From: a virus
DNA length: 21,858 bases
Strand: one strand, 5' to 3'
IMG/VR virus record: IMGVR_UViG_3300024262_002612
Span: 1-21,858 of that record
Made by a program: the position numbers and the translations under genes. Below, one piece after another: positions 1,445 through 20,448 of the stretch. The notes beneath the pieces were generated by a model. That model had not been told where the DNA came from. It ran no database searches and worked only from the letters and a program-made list of their open reading frames with translations. Within the stretch, counting starts at the first letter, position 1. Every line of letters begins with the position of its first letter.

Positions 1445-2052
1445 AAATAGCATTTGATGTAAATGGAGTTTTAAGAGATACTTTAGGTAAGGCCGAACAA
1501 GTATATCAAAAATTTTTTATAGACGATTACATCAAAGAAGATGGTGAAGAAGAGTTTGATTATGAATTAAACTTACCTATCACCAGCTTAAATTTAATCG
1601 AACATTTTAAATTTCCTAAAATGGAAGATTTGTATGATTTCTTTTATGTAGATTTTCCTATGAATATTTTTGGTCACGCTCCATCTGTTACTGCTAATAC
1701 TTTCAACACACTAAATGAAGTATATGAAGATTTGAGGGATAACCACGAAATTTCCGTAATTTCTGATGAAATTCAAAAATCAAAACCAGCAACATTATTC
1801 TTCCTTTCAAAATATGGTTGTTTAGTTGAAAAGATTGTTTTTTACTCTAAAATAACTATGGATGATGTTTTATCAGAGTATGATGTCATTATAACATCAA
1901 ATCCTGATATTCTTACAGATGAAAATTACGACTTAATCAAGGTTAAATTTAATACAACATACAATACAAATATAAAAGTGAACTACGAAATTAACAAACT
2001 TGATGAGTTTAAAGAGTTATACACTGAATTAAAATTAAAAGAAGATGTTTAA
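1441..2052 (+). CDS. HAD-superfamily-like protein, probable degenerate or variant phosphatase
   Basis: The 203-residue protein begins MKIAFDVNGVLRDT, which matches HAD motif I (DxDGxLxDT) with the nucleophile Asp at residue 6. The second Asp, the general acid/base, is replaced by Asn8. Further along, ISVISDE is a plausible motif II (Ser/Thr after a hydrophobic strand), KPATLFFLSKYG looks like the region around the motif III lysine, and YDVIITSNPDIL could be the motif IV strand, although its acidic pair is not clear. The family hydrolyses phosphate esters, for example nucleotides. The Asp-to-Asn change may abolish or slow turnover or change the chemistry. The start overlaps the phoH stop; the next gene overlaps its end by 8 bp. 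Confidence 0.62.
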   Translation: MKIAFDVNGVLRDTLGKAEQVYQKFFIDDYIKEDGEEEFDYELNLPITSLNLIEHFKFPKMEDLYDFFYVDFPMNIFGHAPSVTANTFNTLNEVYEDLRDNHEISVISDEIQKSKPATLFFLSKYGCLVEKIVFYSKITMDDVLSEYDVIITSNPDILTDENYDLIKVKFNTTYNTNIKVNYEINKLDEFKELYTELKLKEDV

Positions 2053-2314
2053 AATTTTAGGAGAAATGTATTATCTAGATTTTAACGAATTAGATAATCA
2101 AATTACAATTAACAAAGAAAAAAAAGAAGATGATGAAAACCATAGTATTAATATGGTAAAATTCGAACTTCTAAAATTAATGGTCGAAGTAATATTAACC
2201 GAAAGGGAAGATTACGATGAAAACTTAGGGACTTATTCTTCAAAAGATTTAAGTATTCCCTTTAAAGTTGCATTTAATACATTATTAAGACATAACATTA
2301 TAAAAAGCATATAA
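2045..2314 (+). CDS. hypothetical protein, 89 aa
   Basis: I do not recognise this small protein. It is acidic to neutral, with a charged patch around residues 24-33 (KEKKEDDEN), a predicted helix VKFELLKLMVEVILTERED near the middle, and a C-terminal helix AFNTLLRHNIIKSI. It starts inside the end of the preceding HAD-like gene (8-bp overlap) and ends 1 bp before the glycosyltransferase start. The tight packing supports it as a real member of this operon. No function is proposed. Confidence 0.72.
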   Translation: MFKILGEMYYLDFNELDNQITINKEKKEDDENHSINMVKFELLKLMVEVILTEREDYDENLGTYSSKDLSIPFKVAFNTLLRHNIIKSI

Positions 2315-2315
2315 A

Positions 2316-3380
2316 ATGGAAGCAGAAAAAATACAGAAGATTGAAGGTTCTATCCTTAATTTAGTGGATAGAAAATCCAAAATTTACTTCTTAGTACAAG
2401 ATACTAAGGGTCATGCCAAAGGGTCTATTAGGTACATATACCAAGTTGCACAAACCTTAAAAGAAAACGGATTTAATCCGATAATCATTCATGAAGAACA
2501 ACAATATACCGGAGTCGGTGGTTGGTTAGATGAAAAATACATGGAATTACCTCACCAAAGTATTGAAGGTCAAAGTTTACAAATTTCACCTGAAGATTTT
2601 GTGGTTATTCCTGAAATTTATGGACACGTATTAGAACAACTTTCTAATTTCCCATGTGGTAAAATAGTTCTATGTCAAGCATATGACCATATGTTAGAAA
2701 CGTTAGCACCTGGAACAAATTGGGCACAATATGGTTTTAGAAAATCTATCACGACAAATCATTCACAAAAAGAATACATCAGTAATTTTATGAAAGCTAC
2801 GGATATTGATGTCTTACAACCTTTTATTCCTGAATATTTTAATAAAAAAGACAAACCTTCGAAACCAATTGTTTCAATACATTGTAGAGAACAAAGAAAT
2901 ACTGCAAAAATTATTAAAGGTTTTTATTTAAAATACCCTCAGTTTAGATGGATAACATTTAGAGATATGAAGGGTATTAACCAACAAGAATTCTCAACAT
3001 ACTTAAAAGATAGTTTTGTATCAGTTTGGGTAGATGATGAGTCGGGTTTTGGAACATTCCCATTAGAATCTATGGCATCTGCAACACCTGTTATCGGTAA
3101 GGTTCCAAATATGAAACCTGAATGGATGACAGACCAAAATGGTGTTTGGACATATGAGTTCAATAATATTATTGATATTTTGGCAGAATTCGTACAAAAT
3201 TGGTTAGAAGATAATATTTCAGAATCTTTATATGAACATTCATTAAAGACAGTTGAGTCTTATAATAATATGACACAATTCACAGAAAATGTTTTATCAT
3301 TATTTAATGAATATTTTGAAATTAGAAAAGAAAGTTTCCAATCTCAATTGGATAAAATGAAAGTAACAGAAGAAAATTAA
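2316..3380 (+). CDS. GT-B fold glycosyltransferase (group 1-like)
   Basis: The 354-residue protein has a two-domain GT-B pattern. The N-terminal half starts with IYFLVQDTKGHAKGSIRYI, typical of an acceptor domain with a glycine-rich turn. The C-terminal half carries DESGFGTFPLESMASATPVIG (about residues 239-259), the GT-B nucleotide-sugar signature E-x7-E ending in a conserved PVIG turn. No membrane segment is visible, so it should be a soluble cytoplasmic enzyme. It sits 1 bp after the preceding gene and 2 bp before a family-2 glycosyltransferase. Donor and acceptor cannot be read from sequence. The nearby GDP-mannose dehydratase makes a GDP-sugar donor possible; targets could be modified DNA bases, virion proteins or host glycans. 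Confidence 0.83.
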   Translation: MEAEKIQKIEGSILNLVDRKSKIYFLVQDTKGHAKGSIRYIYQVAQTLKENGFNPIIIHEEQQYTGVGGWLDEKYMELPHQSIEGQSLQISPEDFVVIPEIYGHVLEQLSNFPCGKIVLCQAYDHMLETLAPGTNWAQYGFRKSITTNHSQKEYISNFMKATDIDVLQPFIPEYFNKKDKPSKPIVSIHCREQRNTAKIIKGFYLKYPQFRWITFRDMKGINQQEFSTYLKDSFVSVWVDDESGFGTFPLESMASATPVIGKVPNMKPEWMTDQNGVWTYEFNNIIDILAEFVQNWLEDNISESLYEHSLKTVESYNNMTQFTENVLSLFNEYFEIRKESFQSQLDKMKVTEEN

Positions 3381-3382
3381 TT

Positions 3383-4186
3383 ATGGAAAATTTTAACGTA
3401 TCGGTAATTCTACCAATAGAAAGTTCAAAACATAAAGACTTTAACGAACTATTCTCAAAATCAATACAATCAATAGTAAATCAAACTGTAGGTGTAAACG
3501 AATTAGTTATTGTACACTCAGATGAAGAATCATTAACTTCAATAGTAAATGAATTTGATTACAGTGGATTAACAGTCACTAAAGTAGTTAATACTGGTGA
3601 CACTGATTTTTCATCTCAGATTAATTTAGGTGTTGAAAATGCGTCTTCAGAATGGATTACCATTTTGGAATTTGATGATGAATTCGCATCAATATGGTTT
3701 AAAAATGTTAAACGTTACTCTGAAGCTTACCCCGACATGCAAGGGTTTTTACCTATCGTAGTTGATATTGATGAGAAAGGTGTCTTTGCTGGTTTTACAA
3801 ATGAGGCAACATTTGCGGCAAGTATGAACAGTGAAATAGGTATCTTAACAAATGAAGTTTTATTAAATTATCAAAACTTCCAAAGTAGTGGTATGGTTTT
3901 AAAGAAAGAAACATATCAAGATTTTGGTGGATTTAAACCTTCTATGAAGTTAACATTTGTGTATGAATTTTTACTACGACTAACTTATAATTCAGTCAAT
4001 ATTATGACTATACCAAGACTTGGTTACAAACATATGAATTTACGTTTTGGTTCAATATTTTGGAACTATAAAAATGGTGAAGAAAGAGTTAGTGAGGATG
4101 AAGTAAAATTTTGGTTAGAGTCAGCAAAAAAAGAACATTTCTTTACTAATGACAGAGGCATAAAATATGAAGGTATTGAAGCTTAA
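3383..4186 (+). CDS. GT-A family 2 glycosyltransferase
   Basis: The 267-residue protein starts with NVSVILPIESSKHKDFNELF and SIQSIVNQT, the typical N-terminal strand and helix of family-2 enzymes. It continues through GVENASSEWITILEFDDE, where the acidic EFDDE cluster (about residues 96-100) takes the place of the metal-binding DXD. The later SSGMVLKKETYQDFGGF segment matches the usual acceptor-side pattern 'g..~ R...~.~GGF'. No transmembrane helix follows, so it is a soluble transferase. It is encoded just after the GT-B enzyme, and its stop overlaps the sigma-factor start (TAATG). The sugar and acceptor are unknown. Confidence 0.85.
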   Translation: MENFNVSVILPIESSKHKDFNELFSKSIQSIVNQTVGVNELVIVHSDEESLTSIVNEFDYSGLTVTKVVNTGDTDFSSQINLGVENASSEWITILEFDDEFASIWFKNVKRYSEAYPDMQGFLPIVVDIDEKGVFAGFTNEATFAASMNSEIGILTNEVLLNYQNFQSSGMVLKKETYQDFGGFKPSMKLTFVYEFLLRLTYNSVNIMTIPRLGYKHMNLRFGSIFWNYKNGEERVSEDEVKFWLESAKKEHFFTNDRGIKYEGIEA

Positions 4187-4941
4187 TGTTGTCAACCGAA
4201 AGCAGTGGAACTTCAGAGAATAAAGAAGTTAAAAAAAGAGGTCGTAAACCTAAAACGACCACTAATTATTTTGCTGAAAGAGAAGAGCATGCAGTTCGCA
4301 TGTTCTTATCTGCTTCTACTGAAAGTGAAAAAAATGAAATATATAATGATTATCTGAAGGCTCCTTTAGATAAGATGATAGAGTCTATTATTAGACGATA
4401 CAAATTATATAGAAAAGATATGGATTTTAGAGAAATCCATCATGACACACATTCATTTTTAATTACTAAAGTAGAAAAGTTCAAACCAGACAGAAACAAA
4501 AAGGCATATTCTTATTTTGGTACTATTTGTAAAAATTATTTAATGGGTCAAATCATTAAAGACCAAAAAGAGACAAATCGCAAAATTTCATATGAAGACA
4601 TTTCAAGTACTTTAGAAAATAGACCCGATATGGTTTATTACTTAGAACATGAAAAAATAGAACCTAATCAAATTATTGATGAGTTTTTAACTAAATTAAA
4701 AGATTTTGTAGAATCTGAAAATTTAAATCAAAATGAAAAAAAGTTAGGTTACGCTTTAAGTGAATTATTTGATAATTACGATGAAATTTTTATCGGAACC
4801 GATAATAATAAATTTAATAAAAATATCATTTTACTCTCGTTGAGGGAAATGACTAATTTAACAACAAAAGAAATTAGAACCTCAATGAAAAAATTTAAAA
4901 ATCTGTATTATGATATGATGAAAATTATTAATAATAGATAA
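4186..4941 (+). CDS. phage late-transcription RNA polymerase sigma factor (gp55-like)
   Basis: The 251-residue protein resembles T4 gp55 and other phage late sigma factors that direct host RNA polymerase to late (structural-gene) promoters. The central segment (about residues 80-130) has the sigma region-2 pattern: VEKFKPDRNKKAYSYFGTIC, then NYLMGQIIKDQKETNRK, equivalent to the KFKN(P)xAYITQACxNAF...KKERKE pattern of gp55. The N-terminus has an AT-hook-like KKRGRKPK (about 16-23). The C-terminus (about 210-248) contains SLREMTNLTTKEIRTSMKKF, a helix-turn-helix-like stretch in the place of sigma region 4. T4 gp55 lacks such a region, so this is a difference. It lies between the sugar genes and the tail genes and starts in the stop codon of the preceding gene (TAATG). 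Confidence 0.82.
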   Translation: MLSTESSGTSENKEVKKRGRKPKTTTNYFAEREEHAVRMFLSASTESEKNEIYNDYLKAPLDKMIESIIRRYKLYRKDMDFREIHHDTHSFLITKVEKFKPDRNKKAYSYFGTICKNYLMGQIIKDQKETNRKISYEDISSTLENRPDMVYYLEHEKIEPNQIIDEFLTKLKDFVESENLNQNEKKLGYALSELFDNYDEIFIGTDNNKFNKNIILLSLREMTNLTTKEIRTSMKKFKNLYYDMMKIINNR

Positions 4942-4954
4942 AATCTAAAATTCA

Positions 4955-4963
4955 ATATTTATA
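4955..4963 (+). promoter_or_regulatory. candidate phage late promoter motif ATATTTATA
   Basis: The 27-bp gap between the sigma-factor gene and the 124-aa gene contains ATATTTATA, ending 5 bp before the ATG. The same motif sits in the sense orientation before other structural genes in this window (see findings). If it is a -10 element, the transcript would be nearly leaderless. Confidence 0.5.
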
Positions 4964-4968
4964 GTATT

Positions 4969-5343
4969 ATGGGAAGACCTAAGAAAAAAGAAATCGTTCT
5001 ATCAAAAGATTCTGTTTTGAGTCTTATGCAGGAAATCTACAATGAACTTGTAGAACAAAGAGCAACTGCAGTAAGAATTCAAAATAAGATGTTAGCAATG
5101 TTGAAAGACCCTGAAGATATGACGGTTATAGGTCCTGTAATCAAAGAACAACAAAAGATTATAAACGATACTATAGAAAAAAAATTAACCCTTTCTAAAT
5201 TACAATCTTCTATTTGGGAAAAGGCTTCAAGTAATGATTCAGAATCCTTTAGTCTTTCTGAAATGGATGACGATGTTCTACAAGCACTAATACAAAAAGA
5301 TATAGATAACGAAGGTAAAGGCGAGGGGTATAAAATAGATTAA
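4969..5343 (+). CDS. hypothetical basic/helical protein, 124 aa
   Basis: I do not recognise a family with confidence. The N-terminus MGRPKKKEIVLSK is AT-hook-like (GRPKKK), and residues 14-85 look mostly helical and coiled-coil (LMQEIYNELVEQ, VIKEQQKIINDTIEKKLTL). The C-terminus is acidic (SLSEMDDDVLQALIQKDIDN). It follows the late sigma factor and precedes the tail genes, with its own candidate late promoter. A small terminase subunit or a late-transcription co-activator (a gp33 analogue) would fit the position and build, but neither is supported by a specific motif. Confidence 0.7.
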   Translation: MGRPKKKEIVLSKDSVLSLMQEIYNELVEQRATAVRIQNKMLAMLKDPEDMTVIGPVIKEQQKIINDTIEKKLTLSKLQSSIWEKASSNDSESFSLSEMDDDVLQALIQKDIDNEGKGEGYKID

Positions 5344-5353
5344 TTATACCGAT

Positions 5354-7288
5354 ATGTCCATTGATTTAAGTCAAGATTATTCTACGATTAAAGCCAAGTT
5401 AAGTGCTCTTACTACGGTATTAGAAAATGATAAGAATGAAAAAATTCTTAGCAAATCAAGAGATGGGGATGCTCAAGATAAAAGTAATCGAGATATAACC
5501 CAACCAATATCAGAACTTACTAGTGGTATCACAAAATCAATTAAAAACGTTAAAAGTCAATTTGACGAATTAATTGATATATTCAAATACACATTACCGA
5601 ATAATCAGAGTGGTTCTTATAATAGCACATTAATACGAGTTTTTTCTTTAGCGGCGAATAATACAAAAGAAAAAATATTACAAATATTAGTAGAAGAGGT
5701 ATTATCCGCAGTTGGTTGTTCTCAAGAACAAACCTTTACGATTAACAAACCGATTTATATTAAAGTTGAGTCTATTGATTTATTTGACCAATTAAAAAAT
5801 AACCCTAATGAAGAACCAAACGCATTCTTATATGAGGAAACGGAGACTTCACCAGGGACATTACCATTTTCTATGAATAGAGAAATATATTCTCGTATTC
5901 AGGACCCTAATGTTAGTTTAAATGGAGATACGGGTAGTAATTATATTGGAGCATCTAATACCGATATATTTGACTTTGAATATACAAAACAAGATGACCA
6001 AGGAAATATCGGTAATTTCTTAAAAGTAACTCTTCTAAAAGATACTGGTCAAGTCAAAAGAATATCAGACTTTTTAATGGATTATTATCAGTCTATAGAT
6101 ATTTTAAATTTTGATGTCTTAGTTGCTAATATACTACAATTAATGACTGGTTTTATTTCAATATCAGGAGGTATTTCAGATGGTAAACAAACAGACATTT
6201 CAGGGTGGCAAAAACTACTAACACGTATTATGGGACTATGTTTTGATGATACTCAAGAGATTGCCGTTAGTGGAAATGCAAAGTTATCAGATTTAGGTTT
6301 AATTGATGACTCATTTTTTGAATTAACACCTCAAGATTTAAGAAATATTGAATTAGAAACCAACAACATACAACAAGGAGTTGTTGAGTTTGAAGATTGT
6401 GATAACGTAAAACTACCTGTAAATGTTGAGGCATTTAATAGTGCCATGAGAAATATTAGGTCTGAAACTAATATTACTTCTAAAATTTTAGCAGTAGAAA
6501 ATCTTATAAATGATACTGCAAATAATAAAGATTGGAAACAAGCCACATTACCTAAATTTAATTTAGACGCGGCACTAAAATTAGACTTTATAAAGGCATT
6601 ACCACGTGCAGTAATGTCTACAATTTTATCACCAAAAACCATGTTTGGTATGATGGTAGCGCTAAAATCATTAGGGTCATTAGTTGGTGATAATATTGAC
6701 AGTTTAAAATCATTTATTAATAGATTTAAGAAATTTACAGTAAATCTAATGAGTAGAACTCTTTCAATTTTTATTGAAGAATTATTCGATTTAATTAAGA
6801 AAAATATTAAAAACTTAGTTGCTGATATTTTAGCTAGAATTGTACAAGAAAGTAAAAATAAACAAGTACAAATGTATACCTCAATTATTTACGCATTATA
6901 CCTTTTAGGTAGTCTTATATTAGATTATCGAAAATGTAAAAGTGTTGTTGATGAGATATTAGCATTATTAAACTTAGGATTACAATCTGCAGGTCTTGGA
7001 AATATAAGTTTACCGTTACCATTATTAGCAGGAAGTGCAGTATTACCTGGATATTCAGATATTAGAGCTTTTTCAAATGTTATAGAACAATTACAAAAAT
7101 CAGGTTTACCAACTGGTGACTTACCCGATGGTTCACCTAATCTTATGAATATAGGTATATTAAGTATGATAAAAGGAACGAGTCAAGAGCAATCAGAAAA
7201 CTCTAAAACTGATGTGTTTATACCATCATTAGCAATAACACCTGCAGGTGTTACAGTACCAGCAAAGGGTTGGGGTAAAACTTATTAA
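5354..7288 (+). CDS. putative baseplate/tail structural protein, 644 aa
   Basis: I do not recognise a named family. The N-terminal ~90 residues are polar and helical. Residues about 400-560 are rich in amphipathic and hydrophobic helices (ALPRAVMSTILSPKTMFGMM, FIEELFDLIKKNIKNLV, IIYALYLLGSLILDY), and the C-terminus ends VTVPAKGWGKTY, a Gly/Pro-rich tail. There is no signal peptide. The hydrophobic middle could be membrane-active or a helical packing core. It lies directly before a small coiled-coil gene and the gp5-like hub (2-bp gap), so a baseplate or tail-hub role is inferred from context only. Confidence 0.72.
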   Translation: MSIDLSQDYSTIKAKLSALTTVLENDKNEKILSKSRDGDAQDKSNRDITQPISELTSGITKSIKNVKSQFDELIDIFKYTLPNNQSGSYNSTLIRVFSLAANNTKEKILQILVEEVLSAVGCSQEQTFTINKPIYIKVESIDLFDQLKNNPNEEPNAFLYEETETSPGTLPFSMNREIYSRIQDPNVSLNGDTGSNYIGASNTDIFDFEYTKQDDQGNIGNFLKVTLLKDTGQVKRISDFLMDYYQSIDILNFDVLVANILQLMTGFISISGGISDGKQTDISGWQKLLTRIMGLCFDDTQEIAVSGNAKLSDLGLIDDSFFELTPQDLRNIELETNNIQQGVVEFEDCDNVKLPVNVEAFNSAMRNIRSETNITSKILAVENLINDTANNKDWKQATLPKFNLDAALKLDFIKALPRAVMSTILSPKTMFGMMVALKSLGSLVGDNIDSLKSFINRFKKFTVNLMSRTLSIFIEELFDLIKKNIKNLVADILARIVQESKNKQVQMYTSIIYALYLLGSLILDYRKCKSVVDEILALLNLGLQSAGLGNISLPLPLLAGSAVLPGYSDIRAFSNVIEQLQKSGLPTGDLPDGSPNLMNIGILSMIKGTSQEQSENSKTDVFIPSLAITPAGVTVPAKGWGKTY

Positions 7289-7290
7289 TT

Positions 7291-7491
7291 ATGGATGAAA
7301 ATAAAATAAAAAGTACACTATTAGATTACAAGAATAAGTCAAATAAAGAGTTGACTGAAGCCATGGACTTTTTAAACAATGATTTTGAAAAGACCAAAGA
7401 ATATATTGTTAAAATGACACATCACTTAGATGGTGTTGAAAGGGCTTACAATAAACTTTTAGAGGAATATCAAAAGAGAAATAAAAAATGA
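7291..7491 (+). CDS. small coiled-coil protein, 66 aa
   Basis: This 66-residue, highly charged protein is predicted to be almost entirely helical, with heptad-like spacing of Leu/Ile/Met (LLDYKNKSNKELTEAMDFL, YIVKMTHHLDGVERAYNKLL). It starts 2 bp after the 644-aa gene, and its stop overlaps the next start (ATGA), so it is coupled to the hub gene. A chaperone or tail-assembly helper would fit, but nothing specific can be seen. Confidence 0.75.
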   Translation: MDENKIKSTLLDYKNKSNKELTEAMDFLNNDFEKTKEYIVKMTHHLDGVERAYNKLLEEYQKRNKK

Positions 7492-9122
7492 GTATAGTCG
7501 ATAATATTATCAATACTCAGATACTATCCGCAGGTAGGGTTATAGATGTAAATGACCCAATGATGTTGGGTAGAATTAGAGTTTTGTCCGAAAACGATAA
7601 CGAAGACGAACTTAAAAGGTCGTCAAAAGGTTTTGACCCCAATAGTCCAACACCCGATGATAATGGTCCTTGGTCTTCAAAGGACCCGTTTTTATTCCTC
7701 CCACTTTTACCTGTATTTATTAATCCTGTTCCAAAAGAGGGTGAATATGTACACCTGTTTTATCAATATAGAAGCTCAAGAACATCAAAAAACAAATTTT
7801 ATGTTCAAGGTCCGTTTTCAACACCCATAAATCTTAATAGTGAGGATATTGAAAAGTCTAAAACTCATTTAGATTCAGGTTCACGTTTACCTCGTCCAAC
7901 AAATATTAAAGTTAATCTATCAACTCAAGGTGCTCAAAGATTACAAGAGGCTAAAAATAATTTAGGACAAAACGAAGATAAAGTTAATTTAGGTTATACT
8001 AATGATAAGACAAAAGGTATATTCCCCGAACCAGGTGATAATGCATTATTAGGTAGAGGAAGTTCTGATGTTGTTATAAAAGAAAATGAGGTCATATTAA
8101 GAGCTGGAAAGTATAAGAATTTACAACCACCAAATATGCCCGATGCAAATGGAAATAGAGCGTTTTTACAACTATCTAAATTTGATTTCACCAAGAGTAT
8201 AGGACAAAAGAATAACAGACAACGATTAGTTAAGAGTGATACGTTTATTAAATACTTAATTGAATACAACATATATAACCCTGAAAATACTCAAAACAAA
8301 TTTAGGGGAGATATCACATTATATAAACTACCAAGTCAAGTTCCAAAAACAAATACAGCCAACTTTGATATTGATACTGTTTTGGAAAGTAGTATTTCTG
8401 TATCAACACTTATCACATCTTTTGAAAATAAATCTTCTAATGAAGTTATCAAATTGGTTAATAACTTTATACGTGATTTTAAAAATGGTGAAGTATCCGA
8501 AGTGTTTGGAATCAATGGTACCCTTAGAAATGGGGAACAATACCCCTTTTATTTTAGACCAAAAAAATCCTTATTAAATCTAACGATTAATTTAAGTTCA
8601 GATAGTGATTCAAATACCACAAAAAATGTTGGTGAAATTTTAAATCAAATTAAAATAAATGATTTGGACATCACACCCGGATATAGTTTAGTTTATAACG
8701 AAAAAGGTGATGATTCCGTACCATATGAATTTGTTGATGATTCTTTTGCAGAAGAACAAATCAATAGTGTCGATGAAACTGTTGCCCTGATGGGGGGTAA
8801 GAAATTATTCTTGTTATCAAATCAAACATTAGGTACTGGTTCAGGAAAGAAAGTTATCGATTTTTCAGACTTTGACGTATATGGAATAAGTCAAGATAAA
8901 ATTTTTCAGGATATCGAACCTAATACATCTTCATTAGTAAGGGGTGAGGAATTGATGGAGTTATTAAACCTTATAGTTAAGTTTTTGGTAACTCACGTTC
9001 ATCCATATCCGGGTTTACCTCCGGTACCTGTTTCTCAAGATGGGACAAGTACTCAAGACATACTAAAATCCATATTAGAGGCTCAACAAAAAATATTGAA
9101 CGGCAATATTAGAATTAATTGA
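7488..9122 (+). CDS. baseplate central hub/spike protein with OB-fold (gp5-like)
   Basis: The 544-residue protein has an N-terminal OB-fold typical of gp5/VgrG-like hubs: AGRVIDVNDPMMLGRIRV (about residues 14-31), then WSSKDPFLFLPLLPVFINPV and PKEGEYVHLFYQY. A second element, DVVIKENEVILRAGKY (near 195-210), resembles the repeats seen in phage baseplate spikes. The C-terminus has LIVKFLVTHVHPYPGLPPVP followed by a helix ending NIRIN, a common ending of such hub proteins. I see no lysozyme-type catalytic motif like that inside T4 gp5, so cell-wall cutting may be done by another protein. It acts at the tip of the contractile tail. Its start overlaps the stop of the coiled-coil gene. Confidence 0.8.
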   Translation: MSIVDNIINTQILSAGRVIDVNDPMMLGRIRVLSENDNEDELKRSSKGFDPNSPTPDDNGPWSSKDPFLFLPLLPVFINPVPKEGEYVHLFYQYRSSRTSKNKFYVQGPFSTPINLNSEDIEKSKTHLDSGSRLPRPTNIKVNLSTQGAQRLQEAKNNLGQNEDKVNLGYTNDKTKGIFPEPGDNALLGRGSSDVVIKENEVILRAGKYKNLQPPNMPDANGNRAFLQLSKFDFTKSIGQKNNRQRLVKSDTFIKYLIEYNIYNPENTQNKFRGDITLYKLPSQVPKTNTANFDIDTVLESSISVSTLITSFENKSSNEVIKLVNNFIRDFKNGEVSEVFGINGTLRNGEQYPFYFRPKKSLLNLTINLSSDSDSNTTKNVGEILNQIKINDLDITPGYSLVYNEKGDDSVPYEFVDDSFAEEQINSVDETVALMGGKKLFLLSNQTLGTGSGKKVIDFSDFDVYGISQDKIFQDIEPNTSSLVRGEELMELLNLIVKFLVTHVHPYPGLPPVPVSQDGTSTQDILKSILEAQQKILNGNIRIN

Positions 9123-9130
9123 TATTTATA
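9122..9130 (+). promoter_or_regulatory. candidate phage late promoter motif ATATTTATA
   Basis: GATATTTATA lies between the hub gene stop and the 505-aa tail gene, 14 bp before that ATG, in the sense orientation. It overlaps the last base of the hub stop codon. It is the same motif as at 4955-4963. Confidence 0.5.
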
Positions 9131-9133
9131 TTT

Positions 9134-9141
9134 AAAAGGAA
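9134..9141 (+). promoter_or_regulatory. unusual Shine-Dalgarno-like site AAAAGGAA
   Basis: The sequence AAAAGGAACTAATG places an AAGGA core about 5 bp before the ATG at 9145. Nearly all other starts in the window lack such a site (typical contexts are ATTATGG or AAAATGG), so this is the clearest Shine-Dalgarno-like sequence seen. Confidence 0.45.
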
Positions 9142-9144
9142 CTA

Positions 9145-10662
9145 ATGTCAATTCACAAATCTTATTTTAATAAAAGTAATACATTAATTTACAACTCGTA
9201 CACAAATACCGCGAGAAATCCTGTGGTTGAACTTTTTTATGGTAGAGTTGATGATGTCATTGCACCAAAAGGGTATAGTAGATATCTTTTTGATTTGAAT
9301 TTGACAACACTACAAGAAAAGTTTGATAATGGTGTCATCTCAACAGGTTGTACAACTACGGGTATAACACATACTCTTAGAATGACAAATACTTCGTCAT
9401 TCGACACTGAACTTTTAAACACAAAAACATCACAAGGAAGAAGAAGGGCGACCTCATTTGATTTGGTATTATTTAGAATACCTAAAGTGTCGGGTTCGAC
9501 TGGTGATGCTCAGTCGTGGGATTCAGGTGTTGGTTATGACTATTACAATAACTCAAGAGCCTTAAACAGTAGTAATTCCATGAGTGTTATGAATGCTATT
9601 GATACTGATAAAAGTTTCTCTAACAGACCATCAAATTGGTATCAAAGAACGACAATCAATGATTGGTCGGTACCAGGTTTGTACGACAACACAAATTCAC
9701 AAACAGGAACAACATCAGGATTAAATTATTCAGGATTGACAATAATCGATACACAACATTTCGAATTTGGTAATGAAGATATTGAGTTTGATATGACAAA
9801 TGAAATCAACTCGATTTTAAGTGGTGGTACCACTGATAGTGTTGGTTATGGTGTTGCCTTTTTACCTCAGGTTGAAAACATAACAGGATTAACTGAAAAT
9901 TATTCTGTTGGATTCTTTTCTCCGCATACTCAAACTTTTTACGAACCTTTCTTAGAGACAAGTTATGATGATTTAATATTAGACGATAGAAATGTATTCT
10001 ATCAGGGTAAAACAAACTATTTGTATCTATATTCTTATGTTAACGGTAATCCAATAAATTTTGACACTCCACCAACGGTTAATATTTTAGACGGTAACGG
10101 AGACGAGGTTTCAGGATTTACAGGTTTATCAAGTTGTTTAATTACTGAAGGTGTTTACAGAGTTGAGGTTAGTGGTTTAACCGCAACAACAGTTCCTTGT
10201 TTTTATTATGATAAGTGGGATAATTTATCTGTTAACGGTGATAGTATCAGTGCAATTGAAAATGAATTTGTTTTAAAATCTTCTGACGGATATTACCAAA
10301 TAGGCACAAGAACTGAACAACCAAAAATTTATGGTTTTGACTATAGTGGTATCAAACAAGACGAAAAAATATTAAATACTGATGTTAGAAATGTTAGTGT
10401 TTACATTAAAAAGGCATATTCAGTAAATGAAGTTGTTAATAGTATTCAAGCATTCTATAGAGTTTATGTAATGGAAGGAACTACCGAGGTACAAGTTCAA
10501 GATTGGACTCAGATTAATAGAACTCCCGATGGTTACTATTTTGTATTTGATACAAGAGACAAACTACCAAATGAATATTTTGTTGATATGAAGGTTAACA
10601 CTGACAGAAATGTTGATACTTATAAAAGAACACTCAAGTTCCAAATAGTTAATAAGAAATAA
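9145..10662 (+). CDS. DNRLRE-like virion/tail protein, 505 aa
   Basis: The protein looks like an all-beta structural protein. The pattern of a 'YLFDLNL' strand near residue 47, a mid-region with NDWSVPGLYDN, then IEFDMTNEINSILSGG, YGVAFLP and finally PHTQTFYEPFLETSYDD (about residues 254-272) resembles the DNRLRE/disaggregatase-type beta-sandwich, in which a Pro-x-Leu-x-x-x-Tyr strand closes the domain. The C-terminal half (about 285-505) has Ig-like beta segments (TVNILDGNGDEVSGFTG, GVYRVEVSGL). There is no signal peptide. It sits after the baseplate hub, so it is probably a tail, baseplate or fibre component. The start ATG has the clearest Shine-Dalgarno of the window. Confidence 0.7.
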   Translation: MSIHKSYFNKSNTLIYNSYTNTARNPVVELFYGRVDDVIAPKGYSRYLFDLNLTTLQEKFDNGVISTGCTTTGITHTLRMTNTSSFDTELLNTKTSQGRRRATSFDLVLFRIPKVSGSTGDAQSWDSGVGYDYYNNSRALNSSNSMSVMNAIDTDKSFSNRPSNWYQRTTINDWSVPGLYDNTNSQTGTTSGLNYSGLTIIDTQHFEFGNEDIEFDMTNEINSILSGGTTDSVGYGVAFLPQVENITGLTENYSVGFFSPHTQTFYEPFLETSYDDLILDDRNVFYQGKTNYLYLYSYVNGNPINFDTPPTVNILDGNGDEVSGFTGLSSCLITEGVYRVEVSGLTATTVPCFYYDKWDNLSVNGDSISAIENEFVLKSSDGYYQIGTRTEQPKIYGFDYSGIKQDEKILNTDVRNVSVYIKKAYSVNEVVNSIQAFYRVYVMEGTTEVQVQDWTQINRTPDGYYFVFDTRDKLPNEYFVDMKVNTDRNVDTYKRTLKFQIVNKK

Positions 10663-10663
10663 A

Positions 10664-11143
10664 ATGAGAAGCGAAAGATATATGTTTTTTAGTAATCTAC
10701 AACAAATGAGAAGACAATGTGATTTGTTGTTAGATTTAGATAAAGATATGGTTGAATCCATATTAGATAACGGTCACGATTGGGCTCAAGACCATATTGC
10801 CGAAGCAAAAAACAACTTAGACCAAGTTTTTGATTTCATGATGAATGAAACAAAAAAAGATGGTACAGAACTCTCTATGAATATAGATGATGTTGGTATG
10901 ATTGAAGAACAAAAATTACTTGAACAAATTATAAGAAGAGTTATTGACGAAAAGAAAAAGAAGAGTAAAAAAAAGAAGGACACAACATTATGTGCTCGTG
11001 GTAAATCAGCAGCCAAATCAAAATTTGAAGTATATCCTTCAGCATACGCTAATGGATATGCCGTACAAGTTTGTAAAGGAAAGATGCCAGGGTTAGATGG
11101 GAAAAAAAGATGTTCTGGAAAATATTGTTCAGGTAAAAAATAA
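10664..11143 (+). CDS. small basic Cys-rich phage protein with YPSAYAN motif, 159 aa
   Basis: The N-terminal ~105 residues are helical and acidic (QMRRQCDLLLDLDKDMVES, EQKLLEQIIRRVIDEKKKK). A lysine linker follows (KKKKSKKKKD). The C-terminal ~50 residues form a distinct module: LCARGKSAAKSKFEVYPSAY, ANGYAVQVCKG, and a final RCSGKYCSGKK. Four cysteines in this module could bind a metal. I recognise ARGK..AK.KF.VYPSAYAN as a motif recurring in tailed-phage proteins, but its function is unknown to me. It starts 1 bp after the tail gene stop, so it belongs to the same operon. Its basic module is similar in style to the ends of the 518-aa protein on the other strand. Confidence 0.78.
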   Translation: MRSERYMFFSNLQQMRRQCDLLLDLDKDMVESILDNGHDWAQDHIAEAKNNLDQVFDFMMNETKKDGTELSMNIDDVGMIEEQKLLEQIIRRVIDEKKKKSKKKKDTTLCARGKSAAKSKFEVYPSAYANGYAVQVCKGKMPGLDGKKRCSGKYCSGKK

Positions 11144-11155
11144 TACTTATATTTG
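11125..11155 (+). promoter_or_regulatory. Bacteroidota-type promoter (TTG ... TATATTTG)
   Basis: TTG at 11125-11127 and TATATTTG at 11148-11155 are separated by 20 bp, matching the Bacteroidota vegetative promoter (-33 TTG, -7 TAnnTTTG). The -33 lies inside the end of the preceding gene. It would drive the 55-aa gene starting at 11185. Confidence 0.5.
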
Positions 11156-11184
11156 TAATGAATATTTTTTAACCTTTAAATGAA

Positions 11185-11352
11185 ATGTCAAACACAACCT
11201 ACCAACTCGCAAAAGATGAAGAAATAGTTATGGAAACACAGGCAGTTGATGCTGAAAGAGCCATAGATTATTTCTATTTGGATTATCCTGAAATGTTTAC
11301 AGAAACAGGTTATTCAGTAAAAATTAAAAGAAAAGATAAAGAGGGTCGTTAA
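11185..11352 (+). CDS. hypothetical protein, 55 aa
   Basis: A short frame opens at ATG 11185 and ends with TAA at 11350-11352. The protein starts MSNTTYQLAKDEEIVMETQA, continues VDAERAIDYFYLDYPEMF and ends in a basic tail (VKIKRKDKEGR). I do not recognise it. The compact acidic body and 'DAERAIDYF' helix look like a genuine small folded domain. A Bacteroidota-type promoter lies upstream, and the last codons form the left arm of a terminator hairpin shared with the convergent gene, whose stop codon overlaps its own. Confidence 0.6.
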   Translation: MSNTTYQLAKDEEIVMETQAVDAERAIDYFYLDYPEMFTETGYSVKIKRKDKEGR

Positions 11353-13519: not shown

Positions 13520-13801
13520 ATGGAAGAGAATAAAGAACAAATTCAAGAACAACCACAACCGGCAGGTACATTGTTTGAAATTATCAATTACTATTCAAAC
13601 GAAGACTTAAATAAGTTTGTAGACCAAATGACACAAGAACAAGCTCTTTATAGTGTTATACAAGCGGCACGTTCAGGACACAGACGAGGAATATACAAAA
13701 TGGAGGAAGCTGAAGTTATTTCTAAAGCAATTAGAATATTGACGACACCCCCACCCATGGAAAACGACTTACCTGAACCTGAAATTCACAAATCAGAATA
13801 A
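13520..13801 (+). CDS. hypothetical protein, 93 aa
   Basis: I do not recognise the family. It has a Gln/Glu-rich, Pro-containing N-terminus (KEQIQEQPQPAGTL), a helical centre (INYYSNEDLNKFVDQMTQEQ, YSVIQAARSGHRRGIYKMEE) and a Pro-rich C-terminus (TPPPMENDLPEPE). It is soluble, with no membrane segment. It is transcribed divergently from the 518-aa gene and is followed by a strong intrinsic terminator, so it forms a one-gene unit. Confidence 0.75.
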   Translation: MEENKEQIQEQPQPAGTLFEIINYYSNEDLNKFVDQMTQEQALYSVIQAARSGHRRGIYKMEEAEVISKAIRILTTPPPMENDLPEPEIHKSE

Positions 13802-13814
13802 TATATTATTAATT

Positions 13815-13841
13815 GAGGACTTTATTAGTCCTCTTTTTTTT
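13815..13841 (+). terminator. intrinsic terminator after the 93-aa gene
   Basis: GAGGACT (13815-13821) pairs with AGTCCTC (13827-13833) around the loop TTATT, followed directly by eight T residues (13834-13841). Confidence 0.85.
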
Positions 13842-13886
13842 GCCCAATAAAAACTAAATAAATAAAAATAAAACAAAAAAAAACAA

Positions 13887-14717
13887 ATGAAAAACACAAA
13901 AACGTACAACGAATTAGTACAGAAGATGAGAGAATTCTTCTTAAACAAAAATTTCAAAGAAGTTCCAACACAAAGTAGATTGTCTATTTTGGCGGCATGT
14001 GAAAATCCACACTCAGTTAAAACTTTTGAATACTGTGGTGAGATTTGGCCATTACCACAAACAGGTCAAATGTGGTTGGAATATGAATTACTCAAAAACC
14101 CTGAATGGGAAGGTGTATTTTGCGTATCTACATCATACCGAGAAGAAAAAGAACCCATACCAGGTAGACATGAATTAATCTTCCCTATGTTTGAATTTGA
14201 ATCAAAAGGTGGTGTCAATGAAATGATAAAATTAGAATCTGAATTATTAGAATGGTTAGGTTTTGATAAACCTATTAATGTAACATACAATGAGGTGTGT
14301 GAAGAATATGGAGGTGTTAGTATACTTGAAGATGAACATGAACAGAAAATGTGGAATGAAAAAGGTAATGTAGTATCTTTACAAAAATTCCCATTACGTA
14401 CCAACCCTTTTTGGAATATGAAACACGTAGGTGATGGAATCTTTAATAAAGTTGACGTTATACTTTATGGTCAAGAAACAATAGGTTCTGCTGAACGTTC
14501 ATCTAATGTTGTGGAAATGAGAGAAATGTTTTATAAGATTGAAGATGGGGGATATTCTCAAAAACTATTTGACCTTTTTGGTAAAGAAAGAGTTGAAAGA
14601 GAATTAGAAGACTTTTTATCTTTTGACTTCTTCCCACGTTTTGGTGGAGGTATCGGTATGACTCGTCTCGCAAGAGCATACGAACTTATGAAAGAAGAAC
14701 AAATTGCAGTCGTTTAA
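13887..14717 (+). CDS. stand-alone class II aaRS-like catalytic core (AsnRS/AspRS/AsnA-like)
   Basis: The 276-residue protein looks like only the catalytic core of a class IIb aminoacyl-tRNA synthetase. WPLPQTGQMWLEYELL (54-69) matches the SGQ strand-helix. Motif 2 is seen at STSYREEKE (81-89; the fRxE arginine is R85), followed by GRHELIFPMFEFE (93-105), like the RHxxEFxMxE of AsnRS. Motif 3 is GGGIGMTRL (253-261; R260), close to GGGIGQSRL of asparagine synthetase AsnA. There is no N-terminal OB-fold anticodon-binding domain; AspRS and AsnRS are usually above 400 residues. Possible roles are asparagine synthesis by ligation, or aminoacylation of a protein or small molecule. Terminators lie on both sides, so it is an independent cassette. 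Confidence 0.8.
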   Translation: MKNTKTYNELVQKMREFFLNKNFKEVPTQSRLSILAACENPHSVKTFEYCGEIWPLPQTGQMWLEYELLKNPEWEGVFCVSTSYREEKEPIPGRHELIFPMFEFESKGGVNEMIKLESELLEWLGFDKPINVTYNEVCEEYGGVSILEDEHEQKMWNEKGNVVSLQKFPLRTNPFWNMKHVGDGIFNKVDVILYGQETIGSAERSSNVVEMREMFYKIEDGGYSQKLFDLFGKERVERELEDFLSFDFFPRFGGGIGMTRLARAYELMKEEQIAVV

Positions 14718-14787: not shown

Positions 14788-16581
14788 TTATCTCAATTCT
14801 CTCAAGTCGAATGTACGTACACCATCAACTGTGATTTTACCGTAGAAACGGTTGTTCACCATCTTCTTAGCGTATCTAGTCATGATACCCTTAATTGGTG
14901 TAAAGTTGAATGGATTATACATAGTTGGAGTCAACTGTAATGGTACATATGGTGCGTAAACGTAACCTGTATCCAACAAAGAGTTACCTTTGTGTCCCAT
15001 CAATACTGTGTTAGGTGGGAAGTAAGGGTCACGATATACTTGATATCTACCTGATAACGTACCAACTCTTTCGATACCCATGTTGTAGTTATCTTGGTCA
15101 GGTGCTGCATTTGATACGTGGAAGTATTCCAAATCATCAAAAATTGCACTGATTTCAGAAGATACAACAATCCAGTTAGCCCCACCTCTCAATGTAGATT
15201 TGTGAATCTGTGCTGAGATTTGGTTGATAGCTGTAATCAACGTTTGGTTCCAGTCTTTCTGAGTGTACTGAGTTAATGGATTAGCCGCAGTTCCTCTCTT
15301 CCATCCGTTGTAGTCCCAACGTAATGTCCAAGCTGCACCTTTTCTCAAGTCTCTTAAGATTTCACGGTCAATCTCTGCTGCCACCTGCTCTGACAATAAA
15401 GCTGTTAATTCAGCCTCAGCGTCAATGTTGTGGAATGCAGAAACGTCCTGTGCTAATTCAGGAGACCACTGTGCTCTCAACTTTCTTTCTGTAACTGATA
15501 CAGTCACTGATTCTAAGTCGAAAGAAACTTCACCAATTTTATCTTCAAATTCTAACTCTTCGTATACTCTGTATGTTGCTGTAAACTGTGAATTAGCAGT
15601 TGCAGTTCCTGCGATAGTTGTAGTTAAACCTGAGTAACCATCGATAGAGTCTGAAGTAATTGAACATGGTACTTGTAAATCAACTTCAACGTAGATAGTA
15701 CCTGTAGCATCACAAATATTGTCATAAATACCACCGTTTGCAGTGTTATCCGCTCCAAATGTTGTTTGTGTTTGTGAACCGTATTCTACGATACCTTTAC
15801 CATATTTCTGTGTTACAACTCTAAATAACAAGTTACCTGCACCTGCTCCTGAGAATGCACCACCTGCAGTTGTTACAGCTTTAATAGTCAAATCAGATAA
15901 GAAAGACTCGTTGTCAACTGTGTTACCATCAGGACCGATTAATTTACCAAAACCACCATTAGTAAATCCAGTTAGTTTTAATAAAACCTTTCTGTATTCA
16001 TCAGCTGAATATGCTCCACTAACTAAATCACCAGCAGACCAAACAACAGTACCCGCATCTGCAGTTACAGCAGAAAAACGACCTTTAGAATAGTCAAATA
16101 ATCCTGGTGGGTCTAAAGCTGCCTCATTACCTTCGTAGAAACGGTCATACAAGTTTTTACCTGAATTGTAAGCTGCTGCAGCCTCTGCTTGTGTTGGTCC
16201 GTTAGGTGCTCCAACAGGTGCAAAATGGTTGTCACCACTGTTATACCCTTGGATTTTAGGTACGAAGTAGAACAATTTACCGATTGGTAAGTTCATAGCT
16301 TGTACAGAAACGATGTCGTTTGCTAACAATTTAGAGAATACTCTTCTCACAATTGGGAAAACTACAGTTTCGAAAGAACCTGAGTTATCTGAAGACGATG
16401 CTTCGTTTATTAAATGTGACGCTTGGTTTTCATATAACTGCGCCATGTTTTCTTTAACGTGACCTTTAAGACCCTCTAAGAATCCTAATTTGTCCCATTT
16501 GTTGATTGTGTCTTCTTTGATAACTTTCAAGTGTTTTAAACCGATGTTACCAACAAGACCTGATTCTAATAATGCTCCCAT
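14788..16581 (-). CDS. major capsid protein (gp23-like)
   Basis: The 597-residue protein shows the T4 gp23 signature. After an N-terminal delta region (residues 1-60) comes FPIVRRVFSKLLANDIVSVQ (75-94), with AMNLPIGKLFYFVPKI following. The C-terminal half has RKLRAQWSPELAQDVSAFHN and LTALLSEQVAAEIDREILRD, typical of the shell fold. A likely prohead-protease cut lies after LINE60, before ASSSD, consistent with the (L/I)xE consensus of gp21. It is longer than T4 gp23 (521 aa), with Gly/Ala/Thr-rich insertions around residues 150-330. Its codons look visibly more C/G-rich than neighbours, as expected for a highly expressed gene. It follows the core gene by 24 bp and shares its start context AATACTAAAATGG. 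Confidence 0.95.
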   Translation of the reverse strand: MGALLESGLVGNIGLKHLKVIKEDTINKWDKLGFLEGLKGHVKENMAQLYENQASHLINEASSSDNSGSFETVVFPIVRRVFSKLLANDIVSVQAMNLPIGKLFYFVPKIQGYNSGDNHFAPVGAPNGPTQAEAAAAYNSGKNLYDRFYEGNEAALDPPGLFDYSKGRFSAVTADAGTVVWSAGDLVSGAYSADEYRKVLLKLTGFTNGGFGKLIGPDGNTVDNESFLSDLTIKAVTTAGGAFSGAGAGNLLFRVVTQKYGKGIVEYGSQTQTTFGADNTANGGIYDNICDATGTIYVEVDLQVPCSITSDSIDGYSGLTTTIAGTATANSQFTATYRVYEELEFEDKIGEVSFDLESVTVSVTERKLRAQWSPELAQDVSAFHNIDAEAELTALLSEQVAAEIDREILRDLRKGAAWTLRWDYNGWKRGTAANPLTQYTQKDWNQTLITAINQISAQIHKSTLRGGANWIVVSSEISAIFDDLEYFHVSNAAPDQDNYNMGIERVGTLSGRYQVYRDPYFPPNTVLMGHKGNSLLDTGYVYAPYVPLQLTPTMYNPFNFTPIKGIMTRYAKKMVNNRFYGKITVDGVRTFDLRELR

Positions 16582-18278: not shown

Positions 18279-19007
18279 TTAATACCCTAAATAATCGGAT
18301 AATTTTTTCATTAAGTCAAGAGATTTGTCCAAACCTTTTCCACCATCTATTCTTGGTTCTTGGGACCTAGCTTTAGTTTCTTCTTCAATATTCTCCTCAT
18401 ACTTGTTTTTATCCTCTTTATTTAAGAATAGATATGCACCTGGAGTTGATGGTGAAGATACTAAGTCAAAACAAATCAATTCGAAATCTTCTTGTACTTC
18501 ATTTTTTTCACCTCTTTTAACTAAAGAACCTACACCACGAGATGAAACACCCATAGTTACACCTTGTCTCATTAAATTTGCGGCCATGTCACCAGGACAA
18601 GAAACTACACCATCCTTATGGAAACCTGGTGATGTTAGTAATTTAATCTTACCCATCAACGTATTTCCTTCCCACCACATATCTGTAATAAGATGTGATA
18701 CTCGGTCTAAATCTATTAAAGATGATTCAGGGTGATTTAATTCAGAAATTGATAATCCTTTATCTATCGCCTTTTTGTAGTTTTCGGCTTCTCTACGTAA
18801 AATCTTTTCAGGGTATATACGACCATTTCTATTTGGTGTATCAAATTTTTGTAATACCGCGTAAAATACGAACGGTTTAGAATGGTCCAATTGTCCATAG
18901 GATTCTTTTATAACCTCAGCATTGCGTGAATCTTTTGGTGATATGTAACCTGCGTCCCATTCCACTAATATTCCTTTACCTGTATCTTGTGGTCCTAATA
19001 TTCTCAT
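18279..19007 (-). CDS. prohead protease (gp21-like)
   Basis: The 242-residue protein matches phage prohead serine proteases of the gp21/herpesvirus-protease group. PFVFYAVLQKFDTPNRNGRI leads in, ELNHPESS carries the catalytic His (about residue 92), and GVSSRGVGSL carries the catalytic Ser (about 155) in the usual SxRG context. FDLVSSPSTPGAYLF is the characteristic strand after the active site. Role: cleavage of the scaffold core and capsid N-terminus during head maturation. The C-terminal tail from about residue 200 is charged and probably removable. ATG 19007 lies 11 bp after a candidate late promoter. Confidence 0.92.
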   Translation of the reverse strand: MRILGPQDTGKGILVEWDAGYISPKDSRNAEVIKESYGQLDHSKPFVFYAVLQKFDTPNRNGRIYPEKILRREAENYKKAIDKGLSISELNHPESSLIDLDRVSHLITDMWWEGNTLMGKIKLLTSPGFHKDGVVSCPGDMAANLMRQGVTMGVSSRGVGSLVKRGEKNEVQEDFELICFDLVSSPSTPGAYLFLNKEDKNKYEENIEEETKARSQEPRIDGGKGLDKSLDLMKKLSDYLGY

Positions 19008-19037: not shown

Positions 19038-19424
19038 CTAATTTAGATTTAGGACAACGTCATATTCACTTAAATCATGTTTTAGTGTCTTTTTAACCAT
19101 CGTGTCTATATTCTTAGATAAGAAAACTTTTATTAAAGTACCTAAAGGTAAATCATCACCTGTCCATTGGTCGTAAGTCGCATAATTTAATGCGAAATCA
19201 GTGACATCCTCACCTTCGTAAATTATCTTTTCAATTCTTGATTCAAGAAAAAAATCATCGATTGTTCCAGACAACTTTATATCTGTTAAATAAACATCCA
19301 TAGAACCATATTTAAAAATCTTATCTGTTTCGATAAATTTATTTAACGATTCTAAAGCATTACTTTCCTCAGACAATTGTTTTTTAACATTATTAAATTG
19401 TTTTTCACTTATTAGTATTTTCAC
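19038..19424 (-). CDS. hypothetical protein, 128 aa, GTG start
   Basis: The first codon is GTG, giving MKILISEKQFNNVKKQL, a start type I recognise from several unrelated phage proteins; no in-frame ATG lies close by to replace it. A variable linker follows, then a beta-rich domain (IFKYGSMDVYLTDIKLSG, IIYEGEDVTDFALNYATYD, LIKVFLSKNIDTMVKK). I do not recognise the family. It lies between portal and protease genes, the place of small core proteins in T4, so a head-assembly role is possible but not shown. Confidence 0.7.
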   Translation of the reverse strand: MKILISEKQFNNVKKQLSEESNALESLNKFIETDKIFKYGSMDVYLTDIKLSGTIDDFFLESRIEKIIYEGEDVTDFALNYATYDQWTGDDLPLGTLIKVFLSKNIDTMVKKTLKHDLSEYDVVLNLN

Positions 19425-19437
19425 GACAAAGTTTTAT

Positions 19438-19446
19438 AATAAATAT
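19438..19446 (-). promoter_or_regulatory. variant late promoter motif ATATTTATT (minus strand)
   Basis: On the minus strand this reads TTGATATTTATTATAAAA, 13 bp before the GTG start of the 128-aa gene. It differs from the main motif at the last base. Confidence 0.4.
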
Positions 19447-19886
19447 CAAACTTTTTTTGTTTTTGTTTTAGATAACGAAAAATAAGGTGAGTTATATAAC
19501 TCATCTGTATATAATGATGAAACTATTTTTTTAATTTTGTCTCTTAATATGGGTGATTTAAAATCTTCATATTCGTTTTTCATAAAAAGTGTTATTTCTA
19601 AATTCATGAATGAGCGCTTGTTTAATTGAATACCACTCGTTCTTAAATCTAAATCTACTATTGAATTTTTATGAAATGTTAAACTATCTACACACTCAAT
19701 TAAATTATGTTGTATTTGTCTTTTTAAATTACCCGCAACACGGTCCCAATTATTAACTTCTTTTCTCGGTTCTATCCACGACTGTATTACAATGTAAATT
19801 GATTTTAATTCTTTCGAGTCTACAGTACCATAAAAACATTTAGCATTATCGAATACATTTAGTTTCGAGGTTTTTCCTTTCTTCAT
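19446..19886 (-). CDS. hypothetical protein, 146 aa
   Basis: I do not recognise this protein. It starts MKKGKTSKLNVFDNAKC and contains a strand-helix pattern (YGTVDSKELKSIYIVIQSWI, WDRVAGNLKRQIQHNLIECV), then LDLRTSGIQLNKRSFMNLEI and a basic C-terminus (KTKTKKV). No membrane segment is visible. It is the first minus-strand gene left of the bS21 insertion and is transcribed divergently from it. Position suggests a head or neck accessory protein, without direct evidence. Confidence 0.75.
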   Translation of the reverse strand: MKKGKTSKLNVFDNAKCFYGTVDSKELKSIYIVIQSWIEPRKEVNNWDRVAGNLKRQIQHNLIECVDSLTFHKNSIVDLDLRTSGIQLNKRSFMNLEITLFMKNEYEDFKSPILRDKIKKIVSSLYTDELYNSPYFSLSKTKTKKV

Positions 19887-19940
19887 TCATTTTCTATTTT
19901 CTTTAGTTTATTTGTATTAAATATAAAATATTTTTCTCTG

Positions 19941-19956
19941 CAAGTCAAAACTTGAC
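19941..19956. repeat. small inverted repeat upstream of the bS21 gene
   Basis: GTCAA (19944-19948) and TTGAC (19952-19956) form a short dyad with an overlapping CAAGT/ACTTG pair (19941-19954), in the 105-bp divergent region. It may be an operator or a weak hairpin; the stems are only 5 bp. Confidence 0.25.
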
Positions 19957-19966
19957 GTATGACATT

Positions 19967-19975
19967 ATATTTATT
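19967..19975 (+). promoter_or_regulatory. variant late promoter motif ATATTTATT before bS21 gene
   Basis: TATATTTATTATC lies 16 bp before the bS21 ATG on the sense strand. It matches the variant at 19438-19446 and is close to the Bacteroidota TAnnTTTG. Confidence 0.45.
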
Positions 19976-19991
19976 ATCATAACAACCATAT

Positions 19992-20189
19992 ATGCTAATA
20001 ATTAAAGTAGGAAAAAATGAACACATTGACAAAGCCCTAAAAAGGTACAAGCACAAAGTCATTAAAACCAAACAAATGAAAGAAATACGTGAACGACAAG
20101 AGTTTACCAAAAAATCTCAGAGAAAGAGAAAAAAGATTGAAAAGGCAAAGTATGTACAAAAAATGAGAGATAATGAATATGATAAATAA
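19992..20189 (+). CDS. rpsU: phage-encoded ribosomal protein bS21
   Basis: The 65-residue basic protein matches bS21 along its whole length: MLIIKVGKNEHIDKALKRYK, then HKVIKTKQMKEIRERQEFTK and the Lys/Arg-rich helix KKSQRKRKKIEKAKYVQKMR. The tail ending YVQKMRDNEYDK resembles Bacteroidota bS21 rather than the E. coli form. bS21 joins the small subunit next to the 3' end of 16S rRNA and affects start-site choice. In Flavobacterium ribosomes it is known to help hide the anti-Shine-Dalgarno, with an aromatic residue near position 54; here Tyr54 is present. It is the only plus-strand gene inside the head cluster, with its own promoter-like motif and a perfect palindromic terminator. The start context CAACCATATATG has no Shine-Dalgarno. 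Confidence 0.9.
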   Translation: MLIIKVGKNEHIDKALKRYKHKVIKTKQMKEIRERQEFTKKSQRKRKKIEKAKYVQKMRDNEYDK

Positions 20190-20217
20190 AAAAAGTGGTC
20201 AATTGACCACTTTTTTT
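20188..20217. terminator. perfect-palindrome bidirectional terminator after bS21
   Basis: A 30-bp perfect palindrome has GTGGTC / GACCAC cores around AATT, flanked by seven A and seven T. It gives a hairpin with a T run in both directions, between the converging bS21 gene and the minus-strand 70-aa gene. Confidence 0.9.
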
Positions 20218-20235
20218 ATATAATAGAATTAAATT

Positions 20236-20448
20236 TTATTTATTTAATTTAGACAACAACCACACTTTTAGTATATCCCAATTTCTTGTCGCAAAAACAC
20301 CGAAACAGAATCCAGCCCAAATTTTAAAGTTTAATATCCAAAGTACTAAACCAACTAATATACTAAGTACTCCTTCAACACCGTTTTTATTAATCCAATC
20401 TTTTACTATCGTAAAAATCTTTTTTAAGAATTCTAATACTTTTTTCAT
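20236..20448 (-). CDS. small membrane protein, 70 aa
   Basis: The N-terminus is an amphipathic basic helix (MKKVLEFLKKIFTIVKDWI). It is followed by two hydrophobic stretches, VLSILVGLVLWIL and IWAGFCFGVFA, joined by a short NFK turn, which suggest a membrane hairpin. The C-terminus is basic. This could be a holin-like or other small inner-membrane protein, but the neighbours are head genes, and there is no lysis gene next to it. Its start overlaps the stop of the 245-aa gene (ATGA), so the two are coupled. Confidence 0.75.
   Translation of the reverse strand: MKKVLEFLKKIFTIVKDWINKNGVEGVLSILVGLVLWILNFKIWAGFCFGVFATRNWDILKVWLLSKLNK

Follow-up and report, generated by a model that had tools for sequence, protein, structure and literature searches.

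A Bacteroidota-type bS21 gene of a T4-like phage lacks a Shine-Dalgarno sequence and may escape the feedback control of host rpsU

Among viral ribosomal proteins bS21 is the commonest, and the use that viruses make of it is still unproven. The locus studied here raises this question: why does a phage keep a 65-aa bS21 gene inside its head gene cluster, on the strand opposite to the cluster? The stretch analysed (the window) spans an entire IMG/VR record, 21,858 bases long, which very likely represents part of a larger genome; TerL and portal genes were not found on it. Its features are listed in Table 1. An earlier note, made from the sequence alone, described bS21 as lying opposite to all its neighbours. 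This holds within the head cluster, where every gene between 14788 and 21691 except bS21 is on the minus strand, but not further out, where plus-strand genes resume (722-11352 and 13520-14717).

Table 1. Features of the bS21 locus, in coordinates of the window
Feature	Position	Strand	Remarks
Major capsid protein, T4 gp23 type	14788..16581	-	PF07068, 248 bits
Prohead protease, T4 gp21 type	18279..19007	-	PF03420, 83 bits
146-aa gene, function not assigned, divergent from bS21	19446..19886	-	Conserved beside bS21
ATATTTAT promoter-like motif	19967..19974	+	17 nt before bS21 start
bS21 leader, 22 nt before start	19970..19991	+	No SD; best pairing -2.0 kcal/mol
bS21 gene, 65 aa	19992..20189	+	Matches to PF01165, TIGR00030, PHROG 21469, 7JIL
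Palindromic terminator-like hairpin	20186..20219	Both directions possible	Between bS21 and the convergent 70-aa gene
70-aa gene, convergent to bS21	20236..20448	-	In 10 sequences, near relatives only

The 65-aa ORF matched the Pfam profile PF01165 with 43.9 bits (E = 1.9e-11, profile positions 2-54 of 55; curated cut-off 27 bits) and the NCBIfam profile TIGR00030 with 38.2 bits (curated cut-off 28.95 bits); in PHROGs it matched family 21469, 'ribosomal protein S21'. The closest solved structure was 7JIL chain z, the bS21 of Flavobacterium johnsoniae (E = 3.3e-12, residues 1-61). These searches agreed with the earlier identification of the protein as bS21. An AlphaFold model had a mean pLDDT of 84, with helices at residues 12-26, 28-35 and 41-64, and all six matches of a fold search were ribosome entries, apparently S21 chains, each of them weak (E = 0.09 or worse). 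Tyr54 of the phage protein aligned with Tyr54 of 7JIL chain z; as shown by this alignment, the phage protein keeps the aromatic residue that in F. johnsoniae stacks on A1534. The aromatic Tyr54 to which the earlier note had drawn attention is not peculiar to the window, since position 54 is aromatic in all 55 distinct phage bS21 copies. Positions 21-28 carry different signatures, KRKFDKTG in the host and K-x-KVIKTKQ in the phage.

A first scan for relatives gave 80 viral loci, and a second scan, made with an alignment, gave at least 537 relatives. Of the 80 loci, 78 have bS21 flanked by head genes of the opposite strand, as far as each contig reaches; these include the divergent 146-aa gene and the genes for protease, scaffold and capsid. 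The divergent gene was found in 78 of 81 compared sequences, on the strand opposite bS21 every time. The earlier wording that bS21 is 'inserted' is therefore misleading; the gene has long been a conserved component of the cluster. A comparison of the window bS21 with that of L005 gave a pS of 0.59 and a pN of 0.118, and other pairs of the group gave pS values of 0.27-0.94 against pN values of 0.03-0.21; one pair (L063 and L077), whose members differ in length and were compared ungapped, yields no usable value. Phage bS21 is thus under purifying selection in most pairs of the group, and because of this selection and the synteny in 78 of 80 relatives the ORF is not a chance one. In a tree of 103 bS21 sequences, all 37 copies of the group and two other phage copies formed one clade (99/98), and this clade together with Bacteroidota rpsU was separated from E. 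coli and Clostridia, again at 99/98. The alignment had 64 columns and two outgroup rows, too few columns to fix the exact host sister. Genome matches were to Bacteroidota in 64 of 65 cases. The phylogeny that the earlier note had suggested as a check thus placed the phage protein with Bacteroidota rpsU and not outside it, in keeping with the proposed Bacteroidota type.

Other parts of the window carry genes of separate interest. A stand-alone class II aminoacyl-tRNA synthetase-like core of 276 aa (13887-14717, plus strand; PF00152, D/K/N type, 44.5 bits) matched the uncharacterised PHROG family 29758 and has a look-alike in a 322-kb relative. The end of a GDP-mannose dehydratase-like gene and two weakly matching glycosyltransferases (105-695 and 2316-4186, plus strand), beside PhoH, are surface-sugar genes.

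A directional motif, ATATTTATA, precedes phage structural genes by 10-20 nt, and it stands before bS21 as well. In 37 non-redundant loci, 122 of 135 sites lay in sense orientation no more than 60 nt ahead of an ORF, and the reverse complement was so placed in only 13 of 135 (about 3.3% of positions are upstream in this way). Within the window, eight of nine ATATTTAT sites were in sense orientation and no more than 60 nt upstream of a start (binomial p = 3e-11). The ATATTTAT(A) sites, at 4955+, 9122+, 13504-, 17967-, 19027-, 19446-, 19967+ and 21203-, lie 6-34 nt from starts, with an internal ATG taken as the likelier start for two genes. The exact 8-mer occurred in 23 of 37 bS21 leaders (1.5 expected from shuffles) and was absent within 60 nt of bS21 in 14 of the 37 representative relatives; among the 55 distinct phage bS21 genes, 33 had it within 60 nt before the start. 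In the 322-kb relative, the motif preceded TerL, scaffold, an endolysin-domain protein and a protein resembling tail sheath by eye. It was lacking at RNR (PHROG match) and at PhoH, DnaK and glycosyltransferases (assigned by inspection or from homology with window genes), and a DnaB-like helicase was an exception to the pattern. From this placement we read ATATTTATA as the putative late promoter of the phage group, which bS21 probably shares. If it is a late promoter, the motif would explain at the sequence level why bS21 and structural genes are co-expressed, as published, and could serve to predict late genes in these phages.

The Bacteroidota -7 element is TAnnTTTG. ATATTTATA resembles this element, without a -33 box, and is the reverse complement of the T4 late box TATAAATA rather than the box itself. 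The motif did not turn up in the literature searched. Two other promoter types were rejected: a sigma-70-type match before bS21 (19952-19980, 10/12) was no better than chance (20 found against 17.8 +/- 3.9 expected), and a host-type promoter TTG-N-TAnnTTTG directed toward bS21 was absent from the window and scattered in relatives. Of the promoter-like elements before bS21 in the window, ATATTTAT is the convincing one, not the sigma-70-type match.

The hairpin that follows bS21 has 15 pairs, an MFE of -18.5 kcal/mol, a z of -7.2, and a T-rich 3' arm and tail, but a search with a stricter terminator pattern did not list it. Three relatives (L005, L008 and L018) have hairpins at the same place with different stem sequences, and most other clades have none. 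On the other side of bS21, GTCAAAA (TTTTGAC on the other strand) was present in 31 of 37 intergenic regions between bS21 and the divergent gene (19887-19991 in the window), with 0.8 expected. It more likely belongs to the divergent gene than to bS21, because the reverse complement keeps a roughly fixed distance of 57-62 nt to the start of the divergent gene, as judged from sequences read by eye. TTTTGAC is likely to be a -33-like box of the 146-aa gene.

A simple pattern search of the 322-kb relative (L147-L163) found 33 proteins with an N-terminal tag, e.g. MKKVIRLTESDLxxLVKRIIxE or MKYLITESxL. The tag was commoner among motif genes (19 with the motif, 14 without; Fisher p = 3e-7), and the window protein at 19038-19424 (minus strand) bears it. 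By analogy with T4, it may be a capsid-targeting sequence cleaved by the gp21-type protease.

To compare translation signals, we paired the 16S tail GGAUCACCUCCUUUCU with the 22 nt that precede each start and took the energy of the best pairing as the Shine-Dalgarno (SD) measure; an SD was called strong in gene surveys below -8 kcal/mol, and an rpsU SD extended below -13 kcal/mol. Only 1.3% of 301 genes of the 322-kb relative and 0.9% of 112 Flavobacteriaceae genes (rpsU excluded) were below -8 kcal/mol. Phage and host messages are equally SD-less. The earlier note was right that phage starts lack SD sequences, but its proposal that phage bS21 biases ribosomes toward such starts finds no support. 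Host genes are SD-less to the same degree; SD-lessness therefore cannot separate phage from host mRNA, and it was ruled out as a basis of phage selectivity.

The sole host mRNA found to contrast with the phage genes in SD is rpsU itself. An extended SD was present in 24 of 25 Flavobacteriaceae rpsU loci (median -19.6 kcal/mol), whereas an SD was absent from all 55 distinct phage bS21 genes of the group (minimum -4.8 kcal/mol), a contrast between one phage clade and one host clade rather than many independent cases. In a smaller sample, none of 39 distinct phage copies was below -5 kcal/mol. The window gene, at -2.0 kcal/mol, lacks the extended SD (below -13 kcal/mol) of autoregulated rpsU. In F. 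johnsoniae, an extended SD precedes rpsU, and the ribosomes that translate this gene most efficiently are those without bS21, so that a feedback loop arises; initiation by the bS21-free ribosomes is slower on SD-less mRNA but faster on rpsU (McNutt 2023; PMC9976891). The phage bS21 gene is without this control sequence and would thus escape the loop if the host is Flavobacteriales-like. Outside Flavobacteriaceae, a strong rpsU SD was found in only 2 of 40 sampled loci, in agreement with the report that no Bacteroidales rpsU has an SD (McNutt 2023; PMC9976891); escape from the loop therefore fails as an explanation for, e.g. a Saprospiraceae or Bacteroidales host. In a 735-kb phage of another group (L167; LR756501.1), bS21 has a strong SD, AAAGGAGGAT (-12.1 kcal/mol, fifth of 69 genes).

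Our main reading, to which we assign a probability of roughly 0.6, is that the gene encodes a functional Bacteroidota-type bS21 of a T4-like, probably jumbo, myovirus, which is made late and keeps ribosomes bS21-replete outside host feedback. Judging by the late-gene motif, bS21 would be produced late in infection, enter host 30S subunits and, like host bS21, sequester the anti-SD. Ribosomes would then stay bS21-replete, the state in which SD-less mRNA is initiated best, at a time of possibly failing host rpsU expression. Since the phage bS21 mRNA has no SD, the protein would be made without limitation by host feedback, and since phage bS21 would fill ribosomes, host rpsU translation would tend to fall. 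The phage might even exploit host autoregulation, its SD-less late bS21 filling ribosomes, shutting off rpsU translation and replacing host bS21 without a protease; we hold this stronger version to be doubtful.

It is similarly doubtful that the extra gene serves only to make up for bS21 turnover, without any tie to feedback or mRNA choice. The phage protein does resemble host bS21 in the tested respects, and phages carry bS21 more often than any other ribosomal protein (PMC9723584). The single old phage clade (99/98), the kept position, the purifying selection and a leader unlike that of Flavobacteriaceae rpsU speak against such a role. Unlikely, in our view, is the selective hijack favoured by Chen et al. 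and the earlier note, in which the different N-terminal half (positions 21-28) makes ribosomes prefer phage mRNAs. The signature shared by phage copies at these positions is also reported in PMC9723584, and bS21 is co-expressed with late genes in relatives, but phage and host mRNA are not distinguished by the absence of an SD, no phage-specific leader element readable by bS21 is shown, and transcript abundance would suffice. A capsid-borne bS21 injected at the start of infection, a possibility raised in PMC9723584, would fit a gene adjoining capsid and protease genes; it is very improbable, as the ORF starts directly at the bS21 domain without the N-terminal tag that many other proteins of the group bear, although the role of the tag is itself inferred. 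Least credible is a decoy or regulator acting off the ribosome, on free 16S tails, other RNA or further targets, for which the bS21 reported in the non-ribosomal OLE RNP of another phylum (PMC12054373) is a precedent, but against which stand the conserved family core and rRNA-contacting Tyr54.

The reading of a late bS21 that keeps ribosomes replete builds on known systems. Chen et al. (2022; PMC9723584) described 47 bS21 phage genomes with Bacteroidetes hosts, in which bS21 lies on the opposite strand in a cluster of TerL, portal, protease and capsid genes and position 54 is aromatic. RNA data for relatives indicated that bS21 and structural genes are highly transcribed together, late, and ribosome substitution by phage bS21 was put forward as a hypothesis (PMC9723584). 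The interpretation in the earlier note therefore restates a published hypothesis; the architecture, Tyr54, late expression and substitution idea are already in that paper, and the window adds one member. Clades a-e of Chen et al. are like the window in their opposite-strand bS21, Bacteroidetes-type protein, Tyr54 or other aromatic residue, myovirus type, and phage copies apart from bacterial ones; in the window, too, bS21 runs opposite to the cluster, flanked by conserved hypothetical genes and close to protease and MCP. Because the contig carries neither TerL nor portal, it was not placed in these clades, whose core set comes from freshwater lakes, reservoirs and one wastewater. The accessible part of PMC9723584 makes no mention of a leader SD or a promoter motif. 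The bS21 of the Pelagibacter phage HTVC008M, viral like that of the window but with a host from another phylum, enters E. coli 70S ribosomes (Mizuno 2019, PMC6375957, cited in PMC9723584). Ribosome substitution by the window bS21 is plausible. F. johnsoniae bS21 (rpsU; 7JIL; PMC9976891) is like the phage protein in its end-to-end alignment and Tyr54, and differs at positions 21-28 and in its autoregulated gene with an extended SD, where the phage gene has none. This contrast between rpsU and the SD-less phage copies provides a concrete test in the tractable F. johnsoniae, with rpsU and SD-less reporters.
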